DNA of 64,000 nucleotides from Alteraurantiacibacter buctensis (GTDB lineage Bacteria; Pseudomonadota; Alphaproteobacteria; Sphingomonadales; Sphingomonadaceae): the NCBI RefSeq assembly GCF_009827655.1, contig NZ_WTYV01000002.1, forward strand, positions 744,657 through 808,656. Reading direction: 5' to 3'. A model generated the notes under the pieces. That model had not been told where the DNA came from. It ran no database searches and was given only the letters and a program-made list of their open reading frames with translations. Both the position numbers and the translations under genes were made by a program. This document shows positions 5,450-64,000 of this stretch, one piece after another. Position 1 is the stretch's first letter; each line of letters opens with the position of its first letter.

Positions 5450-6169
5450 TTACCGTGAAGTTTCCACTCTTTCGCGGTGCAGGTTGGGGAAGTCCTCTGC
5501 CAGCAGGGCGGCAATGCGCTGACCCACCACTTCGGGAGCTTTCACGGTCTGCGGGTCCTCGCCCGGATAGGCGCGCGCGCGCATCTGGGTGCGCGTGGCG
5601 CCCGGATCGATGATGGCGACGCGCGTATTGGAGATGCGGCCGATCTCCTGCCCGTGGCTCAGCAACAAGCTTTCGAAGGCGGCCTTGCTGGCCCCGTAGG
5701 CACCCCAGAAGGCACGCGGCTCGCTGCCGACGGAGCTGGTGAGGCCCACGATCCGGCCATCGGCGCTGCGCTTGAGCAGCGGATCGAAGGCGGCGATCAG
5801 CGCTTGCGTGGCCAGCACGTTCAGGGTCAGCGCTTGGCTGAACTGCTTCGGCTCGATCTGCGTTACGGGCGTCAGCGTGGGCAGCATGGCGGCGTTGATA
5901 ACCAGGATGTCCAGCCGGTCCCACCGCTCGGCCACCGCCTGGGTGAGGCGCAGGATGCCGTCGCCCTCGGTCAGGTCCAGCGGGGCGATGGTGCTGGTGC
6001 CGCCGGCTTCGTGGATGGCATCCTCCACCGCCTCGAGCTGCTTCACGCTGCGTCCGGTGATGATCACGTGGGCACCCGCCGCAGCCAGCGCCTGCGCCGT
6101 CGCCGCGCCGATGCCGCGGCTGGCACCGGTTACCAGGGCGACGCGTCCGGCCAGGGGCTTGTCGGTCAT
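5450..6169 (-). CDS. Short-chain dehydrogenase/reductase (SDR) family oxidoreductase
   Basis: A 239-residue classical SDR. The NAD(P)-binding TGASRGIG motif is at residues 14-21, an NAA motif (VINAAML) follows near residue 90, a catalytic serine lies in the LTSSVGS stretch, and YGASK near residue 155 gives the Tyr and Lys of the active site. The start is the ATG at 6169, directly before the conserved first beta strand; the upstream extension is basic and not family-like. The gene lies 10 bp downstream of purF on the same strand and is likely co-transcribed with it. The substrate is not identifiable. Confidence 0.9.
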   Translation of the reverse strand: MTDKPLAGRVALVTGASRGIGAATAQALAAAGAHVIITGRSVKQLEAVEDAIHEAGGTSTIAPLDLTEGDGILRLTQAVAERWDRLDILVINAAMLPTLTPVTQIEPKQFSQALTLNVLATQALIAAFDPLLKRSADGRIVGLTSSVGSEPRAFWGAYGASKAAFESLLLSHGQEIGRISNTRVAIIDPGATRTQMRARAYPGEDPQTVKAPEVVGQRIAALLAEDFPNLHRERVETSR

Positions 6170-16102: not shown

Positions 16103-17614
16103 ATGACCCAGTCGACGATCACCCCCAACAGGCCCGGTGCCCGTCGCTACCGGTCGGCCCCGCGTGCCCCCGCCCGGGCTGCTGCGGCGCAAAGTGGCGG
16201 CTACATCCTGCCCGGTACTCCGCCCATCGCCCTGCTGCAGGCCACGTTTGCGCTGGTCGTGGGGTGCCTGGTGACCGGTTTTTCGATGCCCGAAGGGATC
16301 GACGAACTGGCGGTCTATCGGCACTGCTCGATGTTTCTGGGCCTGTCACTGGCCGTTTCGCTGCTGATCCAGGCGCGGGGCAACCTGCGCCGGCTGATCC
16401 GGGCAGACGTGGTGGCCCTGTGCGCCATGTATTTCCTGACCTTCGCCGAGTTTCTCAACCCCGACGTGCGCGTGCTGTTTGCCGGCTATACCGGACAGGC
16501 CCAGCACGCATCGTGGCTGGTGCTGGCAACGATGATGTCGATCGCTGTCGGCCGTCATCTGGCGCCGAACCTGGGAAGCAGGCCGTTCAATCTGCCGCAC
16601 CTGTCGTTGAACGGCATGCTGGTCGTGGCCGTCGTCTGTTTCTTTCTGGGCTACCTGTGGCCGCTGATCACCGTCAACTTCAACCCTGTGAGCCTGGTGA
16701 CCGAGGCGCTTGGGCCCCGCTTCAGCCAGCCCTGGCAGCGCGGGCGCACGGGTGACTGGAGCTCCTTCCTCACCGAGCTGAGCCTGCTGCACTATGCCTT
16801 TGCGGGCCTGGTCGGCGTGATCATGAGCGGGCGGCAGAAGCTGGTGCTGCCGGTGGTGGGCCTGCTGGCCGGCCTGTTCGCGTTCATGTGCTTCATGGAT
16901 TTCGCCGCAGGCACCCGCTACATCCTGATGATCAAGCTGGGTCTGGCGGTTGCGGGCTATGTGGCGGGGTCGCGCAAGATTGCCAGCATGAAGCTGTGGA
17001 TCGTGGGTGCGCTCAGTCTGGCGGCCATGTGGTTCATCACCGGCGAGATGCTGCGCTTGCGCGAAGTGGGGCTGACGCGCTGGATCGAGGGTGACCAGAT
17101 CACCGCCGCCACCGCGGGGCAGAACTACTTCCTGGTCGACAACAACATGATCACGATCGCCCGCGCCCTGCAGGTGTTTCCCAATCCCAACCCGTTCCCG
17201 GGGGCCGACGTGGTCCTGGTGGCAATCACCAAGTGGGTTCCGCGCGTGCTCTGGCCGGGCAAGCCGGCAGAATGGGGAACAAGCCTGGAACAGGCCCTGG
17301 GCCTCGACGGCAGCTATACCCTGGCGGTCACGCTGACGGGCGAGGCATACCTGATCGCCGGCCTGCCATCGCTGATCGTCGTCGGGCTGCTGATCGGCAT
17401 GGCCACCACTTTCTGGAACCGGAAGGGCGAAACCCTGCGCAGCAACCTTGACCTGCTCCTCTACATCAGCGCCTTCTTTGCCGCAGCCATTTGCATGCGA
17501 TCGCTGCAGTTCGTGACCGTGGCGATCCTGCCCACGGTCATGGTGTACATCATGGGCAAGGTGGTCGCCCAGCAGCGCAGCCGCGTTCCCGGCGGCAGAC
17601 GGTACCAGGCCTGA
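16103..17614 (+). CDS. Wzy-like oligosaccharide repeat-unit polymerase
   Basis: A 503-residue protein with about 11-12 membrane helices. The stretch VPRVLWPGKPAEWG followed by TLTGEAYLIAGLPSLIVVG is typical of oligosaccharide repeat-unit polymerases, which join undecaprenyl-linked units at the periplasmic face. The N-terminal ~30 residues are basic and cytoplasmic. ATG at 16103 is chosen; the frame continues upstream into the glycosyltransferase gene, but that part has no membrane character. This is the second polymerase- or ligase-type protein in the locus, after the one encoded at 9237. Confidence 0.8.
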   Translation: MTQSTITPNRPGARRYRSAPRAPARAAAAQSGGYILPGTPPIALLQATFALVVGCLVTGFSMPEGIDELAVYRHCSMFLGLSLAVSLLIQARGNLRRLIRADVVALCAMYFLTFAEFLNPDVRVLFAGYTGQAQHASWLVLATMMSIAVGRHLAPNLGSRPFNLPHLSLNGMLVVAVVCFFLGYLWPLITVNFNPVSLVTEALGPRFSQPWQRGRTGDWSSFLTELSLLHYAFAGLVGVIMSGRQKLVLPVVGLLAGLFAFMCFMDFAAGTRYILMIKLGLAVAGYVAGSRKIASMKLWIVGALSLAAMWFITGEMLRLREVGLTRWIEGDQITAATAGQNYFLVDNNMITIARALQVFPNPNPFPGADVVLVAITKWVPRVLWPGKPAEWGTSLEQALGLDGSYTLAVTLTGEAYLIAGLPSLIVVGLLIGMATTFWNRKGETLRSNLDLLLYISAFFAAAICMRSLQFVTVAILPTVMVYIMGKVVAQQRSRVPGGRRYQA

Positions 17615-54694: not shown

Positions 54695-55162
54695 CTACAG
54701 GCTGGTTTCCACGTGTTCCTTGGCCGCTTCGTCCTGCACGTCGAAGCCCAGCAGCATCTTGATGTTGTCGATCATGCCCAGATCGCTGTTCCAGATTTCG
54801 GCCTTGCTTAGGTCCATCCGCAGTAGGAGCAGTCGGGGGTCGTCCTTGCCTTCGAACCACGAGGCGATGATCGGGCTCCAGAACTGGTCCACCCGCTCGC
54901 GGCTGGTTTCGGTGACCAGGGTGCCGTCCAGACGGGTGAAGAGCTGGTTGTCCTTGGCCGCAAAGGTGGCGGTTGCCGGTCCGCCGGCGGCCAGGTGGTG
55001 CTCCTTGCTGGTGAAGAACCAGATGGCGCCGTTGGCATCCTTGTCGAGCTGGGCGGTCATCGGCACGGCGCCTTCGGGCTGGCCGTTGCGCTGCAGGAAC
55101 ACGAAGGGGCTGGCCGCCAGCGCGGTCCAGAACTGGTGCTTGAGGTCTTTAGTGGTGCTCAT
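54695..55162 (-). CDS. Pyridoxamine 5'-phosphate oxidase-family general stress protein
   Basis: A 155-residue split-barrel flavin-binding protein (begins STTKDLKHQFWTALAASPFV). Segments such as AIWFFTSKEHHLA, FAAKDNQLFTRLDGT and QFWSPIIASWFEGKDDPRL are typical of the general-stress-protein branch of this superfamily. Its cofactor and substrate are not certain. ATG at 55162 has AAGGAG upstream. It is divergent from imuA, with 105 bp between the starts, and the SOS box lies in this gap, 75 bp upstream of its own start. Confidence 0.87.
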   Translation of the reverse strand: MSTTKDLKHQFWTALAASPFVFLQRNGQPEGAVPMTAQLDKDANGAIWFFTSKEHHLAAGGPATATFAAKDNQLFTRLDGTLVTETSRERVDQFWSPIIASWFEGKDDPRLLLLRMDLSKAEIWNSDLGMIDNIKMLLGFDVQDEAAKEHVETSL

Positions 55163-55237: not shown

Positions 55238-55252
55238 GAACATAAATAGAAC
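55238..55252 (+). promoter_or_regulatory. LexA (SOS) box upstream of imuA
   Basis: GAAC-ATAAATA-GAAC is an exact match to the alphaproteobacterial direct-repeat LexA site (GAAC-N7-GAAC / GTTC-N7-GTTC). It lies 16 bp before the imuA ATG. It controls imuA-imuB and possibly the following genes. Confidence 0.9.
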
Positions 55253-55267
55253 ATCGGAGCGATTCGC

Positions 55268-56029
55268 ATGGACCTTGCCACCCTTCCCACGGCTGCCCGG
55301 CTGCTGACGCTGGGGCAGGGCGCACCGCGCTGGCGGCCCGGTCTGCCTCCGGCGGGCCCCGTGCATCACGAGATTTTCGCCCCTGCCGACGAAGCGGGCG
55401 GGGCCGCTTTCGCCCTGGCCCTGGCGCTCGATAGCCTGCGTGCACAAGCCCCCGGGGAGGAGGCGCGACGTGGCGTGTTCCTGGCGGAAAGGCCGCTGCT
55501 GTGGGTGCAGGATGCCGCTTCGATCCGGAAGGCTGGGCGGCCCTATGCTCCCGGCCTGCCGCCTGCTTGGCGCAACCGGGTGATCCACGTGGCGGTGAAG
55601 GATGCCGCCGATGCCCTGTTCGCGCTGGAGGAGGGGATGCGCTGCCGCGACCTGGCCTGCGTGATCGGGGAGATATGCGGCAATCCGCGCGCGCTGGACC
55701 TCACCGCCTCGCGCCGGCTGGGGCTGGCGGCGGAAAGGCACGGCGTGCCGCTGTTCCTGGTGCGCCACGATGCCGCGCGCGACATCAGCTCGGCGCGGAT
55801 GCGCTGGCAGGTGCGCTCTGCCGCGTCACCCCTGCCGCGCTGGAATGCGGCGGCACCCCGGGCCGGGCCGGGGGTCGGCTCGTGGCATGCCGAACTGTTC
55901 CGCGCCCGCACCCACCCTCCCGGAGAATGGACCCTGCACGATGACGGACAGACCCTCATCGCCGAGCGGCCGGTCGCTCACGCCACCGCGCCGGATCATG
56001 GCGCTATGGCTGGCGCGGCTGGCGCTTGA
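55268..56029 (+). CDS. imuA: ImuA, SOS mutasome accessory protein (RecA-like)
   Basis: A 253-residue ImuA/SulA-like protein. The N-terminal part (VHHEIFAPADEAGGAAFALAL) and the segment DLACVIGEICGNPRALDLTASRRLGLAAERHG are typical of ImuA, which has a RecA-like fold without a proper Walker A. In mycobacterial and caulobacterial systems ImuA and ImuB recruit DnaE2 to damaged DNA. It is directly downstream of a LexA box, and imuB overlaps its 3' end by 89 bp, so the two are translated from one message. Confidence 0.93.
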   Translation: MDLATLPTAARLLTLGQGAPRWRPGLPPAGPVHHEIFAPADEAGGAAFALALALDSLRAQAPGEEARRGVFLAERPLLWVQDAASIRKAGRPYAPGLPPAWRNRVIHVAVKDAADALFALEEGMRCRDLACVIGEICGNPRALDLTASRRLGLAAERHGVPLFLVRHDAARDISSARMRWQVRSAASPLPRWNAAAPRAGPGVGSWHAELFRARTHPPGEWTLHDDGQTLIAERPVAHATAPDHGAMAGAAGA

Positions 56030-57548
56030 CCGCTGGCGTCAGGCGCAAGGTTGCGCGCGCGGGGAGGGATCCGATGCCCAGCCGCTGGCGCTGGTAACCG
56101 AAACCGCACACGGGCCGCGCATCGATGCCGCGAACGATGCCGGCGCTGCGGGCGGGGCCGCGCCCGGCATGTTGCTGGCCGATGCCCGTACGCTGTGCCC
56201 TGCCTTGCAGGTGGTCGCTTCGGACCCCGCAGGCGATCTTGCTTTCCTTGAACGGCTGGCGCTGTGGGCGCGGCGCTGGGGGCCATGGTCGGCAATGGAT
56301 GCGCCCGATGGCCTGCTGGTGGACGTGACCGCCGTGGCTCACCTGTTCGGCGGCGAGGAAGCGCTGCTGGCCGATGTCCACCGCCAGCTGGAGGCGCGCG
56401 GGCTGGCGGTCCGCGCTGCCATTGGCCCCACGGCGGGATCGGCCTGGGCGCTGGCCCGCTATGGCCCGCCGGCTGCCATCCTGTCTCCCGGCGAGGACGT
56501 GATCGCCCGCCTGGCCGCGCTGCCGGTGGCGGCGTTGCGGCTGGATGATGACGTGCTGCTGGTGTTGCGCCGGCTGGGGCTGAAGCGGCTGGGTGACCTT
56601 GCGGGAATAGGCGAGGGCACGGGAGGCCGCGATGCCGTGCAGCGCCGCTTCCGCAACCGCCGCTCGCCCGCCGCCAACCCGCTGATCCGGCTGGACCAGA
56701 TTGCCGGGCGCGTGCCCGAACCGCTGCTGCCGGTGATCGCGGTGGAACCCTGCCTGGCCGAGCGGCGCCTGCTGGAACCCATCCGCCACCGCCCCTTGCT
56801 CGATCAGGTGCTGGCCGACCTGGCGGGAGACATGGTGCGCCTGCTCGAAGCGCGCGGAGAAGGCGCGCGGCGGTTGGAGCTGGGGTTGTGGCGGGTGGAT
56901 GGCGAGGTGGTGGTGCGCCGCCTGGAACTGGCTGCGGCCACCCGTGATGTGGCCCACGTCTGCCGTCTGTTCGCCACCCGGCTGGACGATGTCGATGCCG
57001 GTTTCGGGATCGAGCTGGTGCGCCTGCTGGCCACCTGGACCGAGCCGCTGGCCCTGGCCCAGGCCGATCTGGATGCCGCAGCCGATGCCCATGGCATATC
57101 ACTGGCGGCCTGCATCGACCGGCTGACCGTGCGGTTGGGGGCCAAGGCCTTAAGCCGCCCCGTGCCGCGCGGCAGTCATAAGCCCGAGCGGGCGCAGGGC
57201 TGGCAGGCGCCGCTCGATCCGGTCAGGCCTTCTCAGGAAGTCTTTGCTTTCCACAGCAGACCATTGAAATTACTTGAACGTTCAGAGTCTATCGCAGTCA
57301 TCTACGCCAGTCCTGACGGCCTGCCGCGCCGGTTCAGTTGGCGGGGGCAGGCGCGCGAGGTGGCGCGGGTGGAGGGGCCGGAACGGATCAGCCCTGAATG
57401 GTGGCGCGAGAAGGGCGGATCCCGCCTGCGCGATTATTACCGGATCGAGGACGCAAGCGGCTGCCGCTACTGGATCTATCGCGAAGGCATCATGGGTGAC
57501 GCGCGCGGCGGCATGCCGCAGTGGTTCCTGCAGGGGTTGTTCGGCTGA
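55941..57548 (+). CDS. imuB: ImuB, catalytically inactive Y-family polymerase homologue
   Basis: About 535 residues. The polymerase-like N-terminal half starts ALWLARLALDRW and includes LLVDVTAVAHLFGGE in the place of the SIDE motif. The acidic residues needed for catalysis in active Y-family polymerases are not present, as in other ImuBs, which act as a scaffold between the sliding clamp, ImuA and DnaE2. The C-terminal ~120 residues are the ImuB-C domain (RPLKLLERSESI, DYYRIEDASG, YWIYREG). The start is ATG at 55941 or possibly 55998. Very long overlap with imuA. Confidence 0.9.
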   Translation: MTDRPSSPSGRSLTPPRRIMALWLARLALDRWRQAQGCARGEGSDAQPLALVTETAHGPRIDAANDAGAAGGAAPGMLLADARTLCPALQVVASDPAGDLAFLERLALWARRWGPWSAMDAPDGLLVDVTAVAHLFGGEEALLADVHRQLEARGLAVRAAIGPTAGSAWALARYGPPAAILSPGEDVIARLAALPVAALRLDDDVLLVLRRLGLKRLGDLAGIGEGTGGRDAVQRRFRNRRSPAANPLIRLDQIAGRVPEPLLPVIAVEPCLAERRLLEPIRHRPLLDQVLADLAGDMVRLLEARGEGARRLELGLWRVDGEVVVRRLELAAATRDVAHVCRLFATRLDDVDAGFGIELVRLLATWTEPLALAQADLDAAADAHGISLAACIDRLTVRLGAKALSRPVPRGSHKPERAQGWQAPLDPVRPSQEVFAFHSRPLKLLERSESIAVIYASPDGLPRRFSWRGQAREVARVEGPERISPEWWREKGGSRLRDYYRIEDASGCRYWIYREGIMGDARGGMPQWFLQGLFG

Positions 57549-57616
57549 TCCTGACCTCGCGTTTGCGACGAGCCGAACACGGGCGGCGGCAAATCCGCTA
57601 GGCACAACAAGCATCA

Positions 57617-57631
57617 GAACATATATAGAAC
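57617..57631 (+). promoter_or_regulatory. LexA (SOS) box directly upstream of the radical-SAM gene
   Basis: GAAC-ATATATA-GAAC is a perfect alphaproteobacterial LexA site, 86 bp after imuB ends and only 2 bp before the ATG at 57634. The radical-SAM, udgX and dnaE2 genes downstream are on the same strand, so this site may control all three. Confidence 0.9.
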
Positions 57632-57633
57632 AT

Positions 57634-58881
57634 ATGACCCATCCGACCGTTATCGAAAAGCTCGCCGTGTTGGCCGATGCGGCCAAATATGATGCCTCGT
57701 GCGCCTCTTCAGGCACCACCAAGCGCAGTTCAAAAGGGGTCAAAGGGGGCATAGGCTCTACCGAAGGGATGGGCATCTGCCATTCCTATGCGCCCGATGG
57801 CCGCTGCATCTCGCTGCTCAAGATCCTGCTGACCAACCACTGCATTTTCGATTGCCACTATTGCATCAACCGCAAGAGCAGCAACGTGGCCCGCGCCCGC
57901 TTCACCCCGCAGGAAGTGGCGGACCTGACGATGGCCTTCTATCGCCGCAATTACATCGAGGGGCTGTTCCTCTCATCGGGCATCGTGAAAAGCGCCGACC
58001 ACACGATGGAGCAGCTGGTGGAAACCGCGCGCATCCTGCGCCACGAGCACCAGTTCCGCGGCTATATCCACCTCAAGACCATACCCGAAGCCTCGCCCGA
58101 ACTGGTCCACCAGGCGGGCCTGCTGGCCGATCGCGTCTCCATCAACGTGGAACTGCCCACCGACAGCGGCCTGACCCGCCTGGCGCCGGACAAGAACGCG
58201 CGCCAGATCGAAGGGGCGATGGGGGGCATGAAGATGGCCATTGCCCAGGCGCGGGACGAGAAGAAGCGTTTTCGCCACGCGCCCACCTTTGCCCCCGCAG
58301 GGCAATCCACGCAGATGATCGTGGGGGCGGACGGGGCCAGCGATGCGGATATCGTGGGCAAGGCCAGCCGCCTGTACGACGGGTTCCGTCTGCGCCGGGT
58401 TTACTACTCCGCCTTCAGCCCTATTCCCGATGCCAGCGCCGTGCTGCCGCTGAAGCGCCCCCCGCTGATCCGCGAGCACCGGCTGTACCAGTCCGACTGG
58501 CTGATGCGGTTCTACGGCTATTCCGCGCAGGAGGTGGTGCAGGCGACCGACAGCATGGGCAACCTGCCGCTGGATATCGATCCCAAGCTCGCCTGGGCGT
58601 TGAAGTTTCGTGAACATTTTCCAGTGGATGTGAACCGTTGTTCGCGCGAGATGTTGCTCCGCGTGCCGGGGCTGGGCACGCGCGCCGTGGGCCAGATCCT
58701 CGCCAGCCGCCGCCATCGCACCTTGCGGCTGGAGGATGTGGGCAAGCTCACCGTCTCGGTAGCCAAGGTGCGCCCGTTCATCGTCACCTGTGACTGGCGG
58801 CCCACGCTGCTGACCGACCGGGCGGACCTCAGGGCCATGCTTGCCCCCAAGGCCGAGCAGCTTGAGCTGTTCGCGGCATGA
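57634..58881 (+). CDS. Putative DNA modification/repair radical-SAM protein (TIGR03916-like)
   Basis: A 415-residue radical-SAM enzyme. The cluster motif is Cys70-x3-Cys74-x2-Cys77 (CIFDCHYC). A helix-hairpin-helix stretch (LRVPGLGTRAVGQILASRR, about 342-360) suggests DNA binding. The protein ends EQLELFAA; QLELF at residues 409-413 matches the beta-clamp-binding pentapeptide (QLxLF). The family is usually encoded beside udgX or its partner gene, and its chemistry is unknown. ATG at 57634 fits family length but has no ribosome-binding site, because the LexA box sits directly upstream. Its stop overlaps udgX by 4 bp. Confidence 0.88.
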   Translation: MTHPTVIEKLAVLADAAKYDASCASSGTTKRSSKGVKGGIGSTEGMGICHSYAPDGRCISLLKILLTNHCIFDCHYCINRKSSNVARARFTPQEVADLTMAFYRRNYIEGLFLSSGIVKSADHTMEQLVETARILRHEHQFRGYIHLKTIPEASPELVHQAGLLADRVSINVELPTDSGLTRLAPDKNARQIEGAMGGMKMAIAQARDEKKRFRHAPTFAPAGQSTQMIVGADGASDADIVGKASRLYDGFRLRRVYYSAFSPIPDASAVLPLKRPPLIREHRLYQSDWLMRFYGYSAQEVVQATDSMGNLPLDIDPKLAWALKFREHFPVDVNRCSREMLLRVPGLGTRAVGQILASRRHRTLRLEDVGKLTVSVAKVRPFIVTCDWRPTLLTDRADLRAMLAPKAEQLELFAA

Positions 58882-60329
58882 CCGCGCTCCAGCATGTCCG
58901 CTTCGGCGCGTTCTACGCCGTGCATCTGCCGCAGCCGGACGATTTTTCCTTCTGGCGCGAGCGGGCGCGGCAACTGGTCCAGTGCGATGTGCCGCCCGAC
59001 CGGGTGGCGTGGCTGGAACCGGGGGCCAATGGCAACCTGTTTGCCAAGGGGGAAAGCCGCTTGCCCACACCGCCTGCCGATGCACGCGCGGTGCGGGCCA
59101 GCAAGGCCTTCGTGCAGGCGGCGCAGACCGCCATCTGCCACGCCGATCCTGCGCGGTTCGACCTGCTCTATCGCCTGTTGTGGCGGCTGCAGGGCAATCC
59201 GCGCGTGCTGGAAGACCGTGCTGACAATGATGTGCGGCGGCTGGACGAACTGACGCGGCAGGTGCGGCGTGACATCCACAAGATGCGCGCTTTCGTCCGC
59301 TTTCGCGTGGTGCCGCCCGATCCCGATGCGATGGGCCGGGAGACGCACGAGCACTACATCGCCTGGTTCGAGCCGGAACATCACATCCTGCGCAACAATG
59401 CCGGCTTCTTCACCCGCCGTTTTGCCGGGATGCGCTGGTCGATCCTGACCCCGCAGGGTTCGCTTCATTGGGATGGCGAAACACTGTGCGAGGGCCCGCC
59501 CGCGCTGAAGGCCGATGCCCCGGCGGGCGATGCGATGGAGGAACTCTGGCGCCGTTACTACGCTTCCATCTTCAACCCCGCGCGACTGAAGATCGGTGCA
59601 ATGCTGAAAGAAATGCCGCGCAAGTATTGGAAAAACATGCCTGAAACCGCGCTGATCGCCGATCTGGTGGCCGGCGCGCAGGGGCGGGAGGCGGCGATGG
59701 TGGCAGCAGGCACGGTGGACATGGGTGAGCGGCCCGAGACGCTGGCGGCGATCGACCGGGCGATCCACGCCTGCCGGAAATGCCCCATCGGCCTGCTGGA
59801 GAACCGCGCGGTGATGGGCGAGGGGCCGCCGGGTGCGCCGCTGATGATCGTGGGCGAGCAGCCGGGCGACCAGGAGGACCTGGCTGGCAAACCCTTCGTC
59901 GGCCCTGCCGGGCAACTGCTGGACAGGCACCTTGAGCGCGCGGGGATCGATCGGCAGGCGGCTTATGTCACCAATGGGGTGAAGCACTTCAAGTTCGTGA
60001 TGCGGGGGAAAAGGCGGCTGCACCAGTCGCCCACCGCCAAGGAGATCGACACCTGCCGCTGGTGGCTGGAAGGTGAGCGGGCCTTGGTGAAGCCGAAAGT
60101 GGTGCTGGCCCTGGGTGCCAGCGCCGCACGCAGCCTGCTGGGCCGCACCGCCAGCATCGCCCGCGAACGGGGGCGGCCACACGCGTTGGATGATGGCAGC
60201 GAGCTGTGGATCACCGCCCATCCGTCCTACCTGCTGCGGCTGGAGGGTGCGGCGCAGGAGGAACAGGAGCGGTTGTTCGCAGCAGACCTTGCCGCCGTGG
60301 CCGGGCGGCTGGCGGAGCTTGTGGAGTGA
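58878..60329 (+). CDS. udgX: UdgX family uracil-DNA-binding protein with N-terminal DUF4130 domain
   Basis: A 483-residue two-part protein. Residues ~1-255 are a DUF4130-like domain that in other genomes is a separate radical-SAM-associated protein (TIGR03915 type). Residues ~285-483 are the UdgX uracil-DNA glycosylase fold: Fe-S ligands at Cys299/Cys302, GEQPGDQED (326-334), the family loop KRRLHQ (378-383) with His382 as the residue expected to trap uracil-DNA covalently, and HPSYLLR (448-454). UdgX binds uracil sites irreversibly. It overlaps the radical-SAM gene by ATGA. Confidence 0.9.
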   Translation: MTALQHVRFGAFYAVHLPQPDDFSFWRERARQLVQCDVPPDRVAWLEPGANGNLFAKGESRLPTPPADARAVRASKAFVQAAQTAICHADPARFDLLYRLLWRLQGNPRVLEDRADNDVRRLDELTRQVRRDIHKMRAFVRFRVVPPDPDAMGRETHEHYIAWFEPEHHILRNNAGFFTRRFAGMRWSILTPQGSLHWDGETLCEGPPALKADAPAGDAMEELWRRYYASIFNPARLKIGAMLKEMPRKYWKNMPETALIADLVAGAQGREAAMVAAGTVDMGERPETLAAIDRAIHACRKCPIGLLENRAVMGEGPPGAPLMIVGEQPGDQEDLAGKPFVGPAGQLLDRHLERAGIDRQAAYVTNGVKHFKFVMRGKRRLHQSPTAKEIDTCRWWLEGERALVKPKVVLALGASAARSLLGRTASIARERGRPHALDDGSELWITAHPSYLLRLEGAAQEEQERLFAADLAAVAGRLAELVE

Positions 60330-60340
60330 AGCCCTTCAAT

Positions 60341-60430
60341 TCGTCATTGCGAGGCCGCAGGCCGAAGCAATCCAGTGCGTGTTACGCGGCTCTGGATTGC
60401 TTTGTCGGCTACGCCTCCTCGCAATGACGA
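60341..60430. repeat. Nested palindromic (REP/MITE-like) repeat between udgX and dnaE2
   Basis: A 90-bp element with an outer 14-bp perfect inverted repeat (TCGTCATTGCGAGG, 60341-60354 and 60417-60430) and an inner 11-bp perfect one (AAGCAATCCAG, 60365-60375 and 60392-60402). The arms resemble common interspersed repeats built on CATTGCGAGG...GAAGCAATCC. It begins 11 bp after the udgX stop and ends 10 bp before the dnaE2 ATG, so the transcript would fold into a large hairpin just before the dnaE2 ribosome-binding site. Confidence 0.85.
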
Positions 60431-60440
60431 GGGGGTTGGA

Positions 60441-63400
60441 ATGCCCGAAAACGACCTCCTCGTCCCCCGCCGCACGATCGAACTCGATCCGGATGGCCTA
60501 ACCCCACCCGAGCGCGCGCCTTATGTCGAACTGGGCCTGGCGACCTGCTTTTCCTTTCTGCGCGGCGCTTCCGATGCGGTGGACCTGGCCCTGCGGGCGC
60601 GGGCGCTGGGCTATGATGCGCTGGGTATTGCCGACGTCAACTCCATGGCCGGGGTGGTGCGGCTGCATTGCGAGGCAAAAACGCTCAAGATAAAGCCAGT
60701 TATCGGCTGCAGGATAGAAACGGTGGAAGGCCTTGCCTTCCTTGCCTATCCGGAAAACAGGGCCGCCTATGGTCGCCTGTGCCGGCTGATTTCCGCCGGA
60801 CGCATGGGACGGCTGGATGGCACCTGGCAGGACAAGGGCGTGTGCGAGATCAGCCTGCCGATGCTGGCCGACCACGCCGAAGGCGTGCACCTGGTGCTGT
60901 TGCCGCCACGCGATCTGGACGCCCGCCTGACCGTGACCGCCTGGGGCAACAACGTGGTGACGCTGGAGCGCGAAGCTTTCGCCCCCGAGGTGGCCGGCAG
61001 TTTTGCCGAAGTCCTGCCCCATCTGGCTGCCGGTTTGCCTGCCTTGTGCCATGTGGGGGCCAGCTACCTCTATTGCGGGGACGATCTGGCACGGATCGAG
61101 CGGCTGGATATGCTGGCGCGGGCAAATGGCCTCTCGCTGCTGGCTACCAACGACGTGCTCTATCACGCACCCGAGCGCCGTCCGCTGCATGACGTGATGA
61201 CAGCCATCCGCCACAAGACCACCGTGGCCGCCGCCGGTCACCTGCTGGAAGCCAATGCCGAGCGGCACCTGAAAAGCCCTGACGAGATGGCGCGGCTGTT
61301 CGCCCGCTGGCCCCACGCCGTGGCCGCCACCCGCGCGCTGGCCGATGCCTGCCGGTTCTCGCTGGACGAACTGCGCTATGAATATCCGGAGGAGATCTAT
61401 CCCGATGGGCTGACTCCGCAGGCTTTCCTGGAACAGCAGACTTGGGTGGGGGCACGGGGCCGCTATCCCGAAGGCGTGCCCGATGCCGTGCGCGAGACGC
61501 TGGAGCGTGAGCTGGCGCTGATCGCCAAGCTGGACCTGGCGCGCTATTTCCTGACCATCAAGGACATCGTCGATTTCGCCCGCAGGTGCGATCCGCCGAT
61601 CCTGTGCCAGGGGCGCGGCAGCGCGGCCAATTCGGCGGTCTGCTACGTGCTGGGCATCACCAGCGTGGACCCCGCCAAGCATGCCCTGCTGTTCGATCGC
61701 TTCATCTCCGAAGAGCGCAAGGAGCCGCCCGATATCGACGTCGATTTCGAGCACGAGCGGCGCGAGGAGGTGATCCAGCACATCTACAGCAAGTATGGCC
61801 GCCACCGCGCGGGCCTGTGCGCTACGGTGATCCACTATCGCCCGCGCATGGCCATCCGCGAGGTTGGCAAGGCCATGGGCCTCAGCGAAGATGTCACCAG
61901 CGCGCTTGCCCGCACGGTCTGGGGCGGGTGGGGGCGCGAGATTGGCGAACAGCACGTGGCCGAAACCGGCATGGACGTGACCGACCCGCACCTGCGCCGC
62001 GTGCTGAAGCTGACCGAGCAGATGATCGGCATGCCGCGCCACCTGGGCCAGCACGTGGGCGGCTTTATCCTGACGCAGAACCCGCTGACCGAGACGGTGC
62101 CGATCGGCAACGGGGCCATGCCCGACCGCACCTTCATCGAGTGGGACAAGGACGATATCGAGGCGCTGGGCATCCTGAAGGTGGACGTGCTGGCGCTGGG
62201 CATGCTCACCTGCATCCGCAAGTGCCTGGACCTGCTGGGCGCGCACCACGGGCGCGAGCTGACGCTGGCCACGGTCCCGCGCGAGGATCCGGAGGTTTAC
62301 GCCATGCTGCGCAAAGGCGATTCGCTGGGCGTGTTCCAGGTGGAAAGCCGCGCGCAGATGAACATGCTGCCGCGCCTGCGCCCGCGCGAGTTCTATGACC
62401 TGGTGATCCAGGTGGCCATCGTGCGACCGGGGCCGATCCAGGGCGACATGGTCCATCCCTACCTGAAGCGGCGACGCGGGGCGGAAGCCGTGCAGATTCC
62501 AGCGCCCGCGCCCGAACACGGCCCGCCGGACGAACTGACCAGCATCCTGGGCCGCACGCTGGGGGTGCCGATCTTCCAGGAACAGGCGATGAAGATCGCG
62601 CTGGATGCGGCAAGGTTCTCCAGCCTGGAGGCCAACCGGCTGAGGAAGGCCATGGCCACCTTCCGCAGCCGTGGCATGGTGGGCGAGCTGCAGGACATGA
62701 TGGTGGAGCGCATGGTGGCGCGCGGCTATGATCGCGACTTCGCCCAGCGCTGCTTCAACCAGATCAGGGGCTTTGGCGAATACGGCTTCCCCGAAAGCCA
62801 CGCCGCCAGCTTTGCCCACTTGGTCTATGTTTCCAGCTGGCTGAAATGCCACTTCCCGGCGGCCTTTGCCTGCGGCCTGCTCAATTCCCAGCCGATGGGC
62901 TTCTATGCCCCGGCGCAGATCGTGCGGGATGCGCGCGAGCATGGCGTCATGGTGCTGGCGGTGGACGTGAATTGCAGCGAGTGGGACTGCACGCTGGAGC
63001 CGCAGGGGGAGGGCCGGGTGGCCCTTCGCCTGGGCCTGCGCCAGGTGGATGGCCTGCCCGAACACGTCGCCGCCGCCATCGTCGCCGCGCGCGCGGAGGG
63101 CGGGGCTTTCCGCGACGTGGCCGACGTGCGCGCCCGGGCACGGATCGGGCCGGCCCATGTGGAGCGGCTGGCCAGCGCCGATGCCTTCGGCTCGATCACC
63201 CTGTCGCGCCGGCAGGCGCTGTGGGATGCCCGCAGCCTGATCGCCGCGCCCGACCTGCCGCTGTTCGCCCATGCCGATGCGCGCGACGAGGGGGCAGAAC
63301 GGGGCCGCGCGGTCCTGCCGCTGATGCCGCTATCGGAAGAAGTGGTGACCGATTACCAGACCACCCGTCTCAGCCTCAAGGCGCATCCCATGGCCTTCCT

Positions 63401-63941
63401 GCGCTCCGGTCTGGCCGAGCGCGGCTTTGTGCGCGCCAGCGAGCTGAGGGATCGCAAGTTCCGCTCCATGGTGCAGGTGGCCGGTGTGGTGTTGATCCGC
63501 CAGCGGCCGGGCAGCGCCAAGGGCGTCTGCTTCATCACGCTGGAGGACGAGACCGGCGTCATCAACCTGGTGGTCTGGCCGGACCTGAAGGAGAAGCAGC
63601 GCAAGGTGGTGATGGGATCGCGCCTGATGGAAGTGCGCGGCCGGGTGGAATACGATGACGAGGTGATCCACGTTATCGCCCACCACATGACCGATGCGAC
63701 CGCGCAGCTCTATGCCCTGTCGGATACGCTGCTCAATGCGCCCATCGCCCGTGCCGACCATTGCAACAGCCCGCTGCCGGGCAAGTTCGGGCTGCGCCAG
63801 CCTGCGGGGCAAGCGGCAGAACCGGTGGAACCGTGGCAGCCGGTGCAGCCCGGCAACCGTGAATGCGGCTTTCACGATCCCAATACCCGCGGCCATCCGC
63901 GCAACGTGCGGATCATTCCGCCGTCTCGGGATTTCCATTAG
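60441..63941 (+). CDS. dnaE2: Error-prone DNA polymerase DnaE2
   Basis: A 1,166-residue C-family polymerase, the length expected for DnaE2 (alpha subunits of replicative type are longer). The N-terminal PHP domain opens YVELGLATCFSFLRGASDAV, lacking the HxHS metal ligands, so proofreading by this domain is not expected. The catalytic palm carries PDIDVDFEHERREE. A C-terminal OB-like region (VQVAGVVLIRQRPGSAKGV) is present. It performs translesion synthesis with ImuAB. ATG at 60441 has a G-rich region upstream, part of it in the repeat arm. Confidence 0.95.
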   Translation: MPENDLLVPRRTIELDPDGLTPPERAPYVELGLATCFSFLRGASDAVDLALRARALGYDALGIADVNSMAGVVRLHCEAKTLKIKPVIGCRIETVEGLAFLAYPENRAAYGRLCRLISAGRMGRLDGTWQDKGVCEISLPMLADHAEGVHLVLLPPRDLDARLTVTAWGNNVVTLEREAFAPEVAGSFAEVLPHLAAGLPALCHVGASYLYCGDDLARIERLDMLARANGLSLLATNDVLYHAPERRPLHDVMTAIRHKTTVAAAGHLLEANAERHLKSPDEMARLFARWPHAVAATRALADACRFSLDELRYEYPEEIYPDGLTPQAFLEQQTWVGARGRYPEGVPDAVRETLERELALIAKLDLARYFLTIKDIVDFARRCDPPILCQGRGSAANSAVCYVLGITSVDPAKHALLFDRFISEERKEPPDIDVDFEHERREEVIQHIYSKYGRHRAGLCATVIHYRPRMAIREVGKAMGLSEDVTSALARTVWGGWGREIGEQHVAETGMDVTDPHLRRVLKLTEQMIGMPRHLGQHVGGFILTQNPLTETVPIGNGAMPDRTFIEWDKDDIEALGILKVDVLALGMLTCIRKCLDLLGAHHGRELTLATVPREDPEVYAMLRKGDSLGVFQVESRAQMNMLPRLRPREFYDLVIQVAIVRPGPIQGDMVHPYLKRRRGAEAVQIPAPAPEHGPPDELTSILGRTLGVPIFQEQAMKIALDAARFSSLEANRLRKAMATFRSRGMVGELQDMMVERMVARGYDRDFAQRCFNQIRGFGEYGFPESHAASFAHLVYVSSWLKCHFPAAFACGLLNSQPMGFYAPAQIVRDAREHGVMVLAVDVNCSEWDCTLEPQGEGRVALRLGLRQVDGLPEHVAAAIVAARAEGGAFRDVADVRARARIGPAHVERLASADAFGSITLSRRQALWDARSLIAAPDLPLFAHADARDEGAERGRAVLPLMPLSEEVVTDYQTTRLSLKAHPMAFLRSGLAERGFVRASELRDRKFRSMVQVAGVVLIRQRPGSAKGVCFITLEDETGVINLVVWPDLKEKQRKVVMGSRLMEVRGRVEYDDEVIHVIAHHMTDATAQLYALSDTLLNAPIARADHCNSPLPGKFGLRQPAGQAAEPVEPWQPVQPGNRECGFHDPNTRGHPRNVRIIPPSRDFH

Positions 63942-63943
63942 CG

Positions 63944-64000
63944 ATGCAATTTTCGCGCACCATCGGCGACATGAAGCGCGATCGCGCGCTGCTGGTAATC
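63944..64000 (+). CDS. Start of an unidentified gene, truncated by the window end
   Basis: An ATG 2 bp after the dnaE2 stop opens a frame that runs to the window end (19 codons, MQFSRTIGDMKRDRALLVI). Too short to identify. Its spacing suggests co-transcription with dnaE2, so it could be part of the SOS block. Confidence 0.5.
   Translation, partial: MQFSRTIGDMKRDRALLVI

Follow-up and report, generated by a model that had tools for sequence, protein, structure and literature searches.

A radical-SAM/udgX gene pair between imuB and dnaE2 in Alteraurantiacibacter buctensis, with two predicted LexA-controlled units and a clamp-like protein tail

Genes at the locus

We analyzed a 64,000-nucleotide (nt) stretch of DNA from Alteraurantiacibacter buctensis (hereafter the window; coordinates are window positions), in which a radical S-adenosylmethionine (radical-SAM, rSAM) gene and udgX lie between the mutasome genes imuA-imuB and dnaE2. 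By sequence comparison, the five genes look like two LexA-controlled units, imuA-imuB and rSAM-udgX-dnaE2, and we weigh below the proposal that the rSAM-UdgX pair works with the DnaE2 polymerase. An earlier note on this DNA had placed the five genes in this order on a single strand, and the family matches bear this out; its description of them as fused does not hold, since no fusion spans the five genes. The genes and their LexA boxes are as follows.

55238..55252, forward strand: LexA box 1, GAACATAAATAGAAC, an exact GAAC-N7-GAAC before imuA.
55268..56029, forward strand: imuA, assigned from an NF033429 match, its position and its homologues.
55998..57548, forward strand: imuB, a Y-family-like mutasome subunit (PF00817, 34.6 bits; PF20114, 32.3 bits; both above cut-off).
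57617..57631, forward strand: LexA box 2, GAACATATATAGAAC, an exact GAAC-N7-GAAC before the rSAM gene.
57634..58881, forward strand: rSAM gene (TIGR03916, 574 bits; cut-off 343.5).
58878..60329, forward strand: udgX, a TIGR03915 (DUF4130)-UdgX fusion (TIGR03914, 308 bits; TIGR03914 and TIGR03915 both above cut-off).
60441..63941, forward strand: dnaE2 (imuC), an error-prone C-family polymerase (NF004225, 1385 bits; cut-off 939).

The NF033429 match of imuA was weak (28.5 bits, 1.2e-6, under the cut-off of 150), and the Pfam search returned no family for this gene; its putative identity rests on that match together with its position and its homologues, a homologous gene sitting upstream of imuB in relatives. 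imuA and imuB overlap by 32 nt, and DUF6504 (PF20114) is presumably the ImuB C-terminal domain. The rSAM stop codon is overlapped by the udgX start codon (ATGA), and we take the TIGR03916 protein to be COG4277. DnaE2 matched six Pfam families above cut-off (PHP, polymerase III alpha, finger, two helix-hairpin-helix (HhH) and OB) and carries the motif DIDVD at 431; its ATG start at 60441 was chosen by eye, with a GTG at 60375 as the alternative.

LexA boxes and the promoter of the rSAM gene

Both exact GAAC-N7-GAAC boxes described in the earlier note, before imuA and before the rSAM gene, are present. The pattern occurred three times in the window against 0.88 expected (at least three in 7 of 100 shuffles) and the genome holds 101 copies, compared with 50 of a reversed control pattern; with the bare motif this frequent, we dropped the boxes as stand-alone proof. 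The two boxes appear credible through their position, their A/T-rich spacers, their conservation in relatives and the occurrence of the same pattern (read as GTTC-N7-GTTC) upstream of the genome's own lexA and recA. A third exact box, at 17277-17291, has a G+C-rich spacer and is probably a chance occurrence.

Conservation was assessed in 80 named loci, which are the nearest by rSAM identity and not a random sample. In 77 of them an exact box lay no more than 56 nt from the rSAM start; the rSAM ATG was exactly 17 nt from the box start in 56 loci and 28 to 56 nt from it in some others. Among the 30 relatives with the full five-gene order, 29 had an exact box within 400 nt upstream of the imuA match, the sole relative without one (L059) being a locus at a contig edge. 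In 28 of 31 further loci, taken from samples of the order, class and phylum, a box was found within 120 nt of the rSAM match. The proposed promoter elements of the rSAM gene are as follows.

57599..57604, forward strand: proposed -35, TAGGCA (consensus of relatives, TTGGCA).
57622-57627, forward strand: proposed -10, TATATA, within the spacer of LexA box 2.

When the upstream regions were aligned by the box (n = 78: 77 loci and the window; related rows, not independent ones), 92% of rows had T at -18 and 95% had G at -16, and most remaining columns held less than 0.3 bit. The conserved rSAM promoter thus consists of a TTGGCA-like -35, 17 nt, and TATAWN inside the box. A start site 7 nt after the -10 would coincide with the ATG, so that the rSAM mRNA would be leaderless; it is probably leaderless, with LexA covering the -10. 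A simple sigma-70 scan did not call the proposed rSAM promoter. With a LexA box at the promoter, LexA control of the locus is predicted.

Outside the window, three genes of the same genome (L191, L192 and L193), with matches to DUF7146, Toprim and, weakly, a CHC2 zinc finger, are each preceded or overlapped by an A/T-rich box of the LexA type (GAACATATATAGAAC in two cases, GAACATATAAAGAAC in the third). These genes are possibly from mobile elements and, given the boxes, replication genes of such elements may be SOS-induced.

Two transcription units

Sixty-six of the 80 loci were usable, comprising 30 with the full order (any flank) and 36 whose flanks reached 6 kb or more upstream and 5 kb or more downstream; 14 loci at contig ends were set aside, including L063 and L078 with imuB upstream and L064 and L083 with dnaE2 downstream. 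The gene-order comparison proposed in the earlier note shows that the arrangement recurs: imuA-imuB-rSAM-udgX-dnaE2 was found in 30 of the 66 usable loci, and a further locus, L058, carries rSAM-udgX-dnaE2 with no upstream imuB. Both rSAM and dnaE2 occur in 42 genomes of the order sample, and in 18 of these, spanning 8 genus codes, dnaE2 directly follows rSAM in the same orientation; G002, among the 42, is too fragmented for its gene order to be read.

The distance between imuB and rSAM ranged from 50 to 2822 nt among the 30 full-order loci, and an opposite-strand open reading frame (ORF) stood between them in 14, of which 13 were well supported. Eight of these ORFs had Pfam support (carbonic anhydrase, 3; alpha/beta hydrolase, 4; patatin, 1), five were copies of one conserved ORF without a Pfam family, and one (L075) was unsupported. 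Where such an ORF intervenes, dnaE2 must use another promoter, most simply that of rSAM, and we dropped a single five-gene operon as the general rule. The spacing between udgX and dnaE2, estimated from alignments, was at most 21 nt in 26 of the 30 loci. The locus therefore looks like two LexA units, imuA-imuB and rSAM-udgX-dnaE2. The earlier note had the pair interposed between imuB and dnaE2; as a statement of gene order this stands, but simple interposition within one mutasome operon is not supported, given the opposite-strand ORFs. We regard the arrangement and the boxes, read from sequence, as solid, and the predicted promoter and operon as well supported by comparison.

The genes flanking the locus are ordinary: a pyridoxamine-phosphate-oxidase-like protein is encoded upstream (54695-55162, reverse strand), and an extensin-like protein downstream (starting at 63944, forward strand).

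History of the interposed arrangement

A single clade of 34 holds the window and every one of the 30 interposed loci in the ImuB tree (support 100/99), and in the DnaE2 tree, which left out L066 and L068 (partial contigs), one clade likewise holds the window and 28 of the 30 (97/93); the trees used LG+G4 with no mixture model, and these two carry a warning of two long outgroup branches. The full order was found in one clade only. The nearest lineage outside this clade is G138, followed by genomes with contiguous imuA-imuB-dnaE2. In G138 (L140), which adjoins the interposed clade, dnaE2 and imuA-imuB point away from each other, and a single box lies in the space between. It may be that dnaE2 had already parted from imuB when it joined the pair.

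Three genomes of the clade have the mutasome without the pair. In G127 (L150, about 5819-5960, reverse strand), an intact LexA box and a frameshifted rSAM start lie directly before dnaE2. The relic gave a protein match of 24 residues (54%, E 0.032), and its DNA alignments to four relatives, which include the box, scored 114 (shuffled maximum 40), 104 (43), 81 (47) and 61 (53). We read G127 as a genome that lost the pair by deletion and in which the pair's box has come to precede dnaE2. G130 likewise has a box directly before dnaE2 and no pair. In G019, from the window's own genus, imuB and dnaE2 overlap and no trace of the pair was found; its ImuB is sister to that of the window (98/94), and its DnaE2 groups beside L069 (92/96) within the interposed clade. 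Given these tree positions, we dropped the contiguous imuAB-dnaE2 of G019 as the ancestral state of its genus, and loss or recombination is likelier. A separate case is L157 (G134), where an rSAM-udgX pair groups with the rSAM of the interposed clade; no DnaE2 above the family cut-off was found in this genome and no imu gene in the fetched region, which is possibly the reverse loss.

A second linkage in the same class

Comparison across the class, also proposed in the earlier note, revealed the same genes linked differently. In family f178, udgX-rSAM was divergent from imuA-imuB-dnaE2 in 7 of 8 rSAM-bearing genomes (G503, G621, G662, G780, G818, G840 and G857; not G602), and in all seven a single exact box, GAACATATCATGAAC, lay between the divergent units; outside the order sample, gene distances were taken only among the rows listed. 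The rSAM of G503 was far from the interposed clade in the rSAM tree, and so the linkage most simply arose twice.

Motifs of the rSAM and UdgX proteins

The rSAM protein contains CIFDCHYC from residue 70 (CxxxCxxC) and an HhH-like VPGLG from residue 344. It had no PDB sequence relative at 1e-3, and in a Foldseek comparison of its predicted model with PDB folds, HydE came first (template modeling score 0.40) and SplB was absent among the best 50 of 1202 matches. With no PDB sequence relative and with HydE heading the listed fold matches, a SplB-type photolyase was dropped as a settled identity.

58858..58872, forward strand: codons of the C-terminal QLELF (residues 409-413), beta-clamp-motif-like.

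The protein ends in QLELFAA. Scored in the last 25 amino acids, the pattern Q[LMIV]x[LMIV][FLYW] was present in 132 of 148 distinct rSAM tails, from related, mostly alphaproteobacterial proteins, against 311 of 14800 shuffled tails. It was found in 2 of 132 UdgX, 0 of 71 ImuB, 1 of 60 DnaE2 and 0 of 61 ImuA tails, and in 4 of 2216 other rSAM blocks. The 16 rSAM tails missing the pattern include the near variants QFELF, QLSLAF, QLGFGF and QLQLI. Across 164 aligned rows, duplicates included, Q was conserved in 100%, L in 94% and F in 85%, and residues 410-415 had a predicted local distance difference test score (pLDDT) below 50. In the published beta-clamp consensus, QL[S/D]LF, positions 1, 4 and 5 matter most (PMC3919608). 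The rSAM tail would fit an exposed pentapeptide of this kind with positions 1, 4 and 5 kept, and is a putative clamp tether. A search of 67 ImuBs, limited to the Q-x-x-L-F-like form, gave no conserved column of this type, and a QxxLF-type clamp motif in these ImuBs was dropped.

UdgX carries GEQPG at 326, KRRLH at 378 and HPSYLLR at 448. The reference motifs are GEQPG (motif A), the R-loop KRRIH with the trapping His, and HPS(S/A)(L/V)(L/V)R (motif B) (PMC10359453). Compared with these, the window protein has L for I in KRRLH and Y for S/A in HPSYLLR, and the trapping His is kept. Its UdgX domain matched M. smegmatis UdgX structures with 45–48% identity over the domain among the listed structures, and covalent capture of uracil-DNA is predicted. 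No recognizable DUF4130 match was present among the best 50 fold matches listed for the udgX product.

Proposed mechanism and its alternatives

We propose that the polymerase gene of an SOS mutasome has been recruited into an rSAM/UdgX operon and that the pair works with DnaE2; we find about as much reason to accept it as to doubt it. It draws on gene order, boxes, promoter geometry, spacing, the single clade, loss of the pair, the second linkage, motifs and the tail, all as read from the DNA. DNA damage would inactivate LexA and two promoters would fire together, the first yielding ImuA and ImuB and the second the rSAM protein, the DUF4130-UdgX protein and DnaE2. At the second promoter, the -10 would lie inside the LexA box, most likely with a leaderless mRNA. 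ImuB would recruit DnaE2 to the beta clamp, as does M. tuberculosis ImuB (PMC3901139), and the rSAM protein would probably dock on the same clamp via its C-terminal QLELF. UdgX would remove uracil and remain covalently on the abasic sugar, the rSAM enzyme (with DUF4130) would target a modified or damaged base where the fork has stalled, and DnaE2 would synthesize across or past the trapped site. In this sequence of events, we infer the transcript structure, the clamp binding, the rSAM substrate and the use of UdgX sites as DnaE2 substrates. That the pair acts with DnaE2 is plausible, with the recurrent linkage and the clamp-like tail as two physical hints; the tail offers a possible physical route from the pair to DnaE2 synthesis and is not proof of one.

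Co-occurrence of the proteins was scored with family cut-offs in the order sample and, in those of the class and the phylum, with E 1e-60 for rSAM and 1e-260 for DnaE2; counts and p values ignore relatedness, which weakens them as support. DnaE2 was present in 42 of 43 rSAM-positive against 44 of 104 rSAM-negative genomes in the order sample, in 23 of 25 against 150 of 360 in the class sample, and in 72 of 84 against 98 of 314 in the phylum sample. The rSAM family was present in Caulobacter vibrioides (a control of the genome search), which we take to be the same species as Caulobacter crescentus. To our knowledge, M. tuberculosis has no UdgX.

Several further observations weigh against the proposal. 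Within the window's own family, the DnaE2 signal was weak (41 of 42 rSAM-positive against 18 of 22 rSAM-negative genomes, p 0.044). Neither imuB nor dnaE2 was found in the fetched flank of 35 of the 66 loci, and 12 of 84 rSAM-positive genomes of the phylum sample had no DnaE2 at the threshold used; the pair therefore does not need DnaE2. G019, G127 and G130 keep the mutasome without the pair. The rSAM tree mixes interposed and other rows within a clade of 52 (at least nine changes, with the contig-edge or one-sided L058, L063, L064, L078 and L083 labeled interposed). Loci L229-L232, the four compared from outside the class but within the phylum, showed no such exact box beside rSAM. The seven divergent f178 genomes carry QLGFGF, which falls outside the search pattern, and the tail is also present in unlinked lineages, which argues for work at the replisome and not with DnaE2 in particular. 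Any clamp contact of these ImuBs themselves is putative. UdgX has also been called detrimental to C-to-G editing (PMC7925527).

Within the window, the division into two units is less clear-cut. The imuB-rSAM gap is 85 nt and holds no called terminator, and at this length read-through from imuAB, and with it one operon of all five genes, is possible. A strong hairpin also stands between udgX and dnaE2.

60342..60429: palindromic repeat in the udgX-dnaE2 gap, CGTCATTGCGAG ... CTCGCAATGACG, whose core occurs at 60342 and in reverse at 60418.

The RNA of 60330-60440 folded at -64.9 kcal/mol (z -7.0), and terminator prediction did not call the repeat. In most of the 30 relatives the udgX-dnaE2 gap is only a few nt, unlike that of the window. 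The repeat may affect transcript stability or dnaE2 expression.

A serious rival is shared regulation alone, which we consider possible, if short of probable: SOS genes with LexA promoters become neighbors since a single promoter is enough for both, and the pair and DnaE2 treat separate lesions and never meet. It would account for the loci with the pair far from imuB and dnaE2, for the rSAM-positive genomes without DnaE2 and for the mutasomes that persist without the pair, and the box at 28 of 31 further rSAM loci makes LexA control of the pair look older than the linkage. It fits less well with the same cassette having been linked in two different ways and with dnaE2 having left its known partner imuB to follow the pair, and the clamp-like tail would put the rSAM protein on the same platform.

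A sharper form of the proposal that the pair works with DnaE2 seems to us unlikely: the clamp-tethered TIGR03916 protein would edit or open a base at stalled forks and, with UdgX, make abasic or capped sites bypassed by ImuABC, so that UdgX, and not just the polymerase, would be the source of the ImuB/ImuC-dependent G:C to C:G changes of UV-treated Caulobacter.

More doubtful still is UdgX as a brake, capping uracil-derived abasic sites against cutting or bypass and co-expressed with DnaE2 to limit mutagenesis; abasic-site protection is a role proposed in PMC10359453, and the reported detriment to C-to-G editing (PMC7925527) points the same way, but a covalent block on the template would presumably itself need bypass or recombination, and the sequence does not tell a brake from a feeder. 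A known anti-phage defense system was dropped, PADLOC having returned 0 matches for rSAM, udgX, imuA and imuB, the only four genes scanned.

If the pair does work with DnaE2, the link would explain part of the ImuABC mutation signature and would amount to a natural analog of base editors in which UdgX and polymerases are combined. The apparent natural operon joins UdgX and the rSAM protein to an error-prone polymerase and, together with the conserved clamp-like tail, makes a link between uracil handling and mutagenesis testable. In the available literature, the rSAM partner of UdgX has only predicted roles, and UdgX is used as a tool. In the literature searched, which covers few subscription journals, UdgX with ImuB or with "radical SAM" gave no paper, nor did TIGR03916, TIGR03915, or "radical SAM" together with "clamp binding motif"; TIGR03914 alone gave one. 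The clamp-like QLxLF tail of the rSAM protein is the new element here, and LexA control of the pair is already in print.

Comparison with known systems

The locus resembles the Caulobacter-type imuA-imuB-dnaE2 cassette in the three genes (imuA putatively), their relative order, the single strand and the LexA box. Among 16 non-interposed family members (L134-L149), 15 carried the three genes side by side on a single strand, and an exact box lay near imuA in 15; in the window, by contrast, dnaE2 is parted from imuB and lies behind rSAM-udgX with a second LexA promoter. M. tuberculosis ImuB brings DnaE2 to the beta clamp, and in Caulobacter crescentus UV-induced G:C to C:G transversions require imuB and imuC, a signature unlike those of E. 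coli UmuDC and M. tuberculosis ImuA'BC (PMC3901139).

The second unit resembles the LexA-regulated uracil-DNA glycosylase (UDG)/radical-SAM pair (COG1573-COG4277, PMC8565304) in having rSAM followed by udgX under LexA control, and differs from it in adding dnaE2 as the third gene. A leaderless LexA promoter and a clamp-like tail are not described for that pair in the available part of PMC8565304; that paper reports that the UDG-based system is SOS-regulated in Alphaproteobacteria and Verrucomicrobia and infers the same for Bacteroidetes. DUF4130 has been placed with SplB-like radical-SAM proteins and UDGs in SOS neighborhoods (PMC3765255).

With Mycobacterium smegmatis UdgX, the window protein shares GEQPG, KRR(L/I)H with the trapping His, and HPSxLLR, and differs in its fused N-terminal DUF4130 domain. 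The physiological role of UdgX has been called largely unknown, with protection of abasic sites proposed (PMC10359453). A precedent for coupling a C-family polymerase to a PF03167 glycosylase is the DnaE-UDG fusion (DnaEX variant) of some enterobacteria, in which both form one polypeptide with an archaeal-type UDG (PMC3919608), whereas in the window they are separate proteins and the glycosylase is of the UdgX class.

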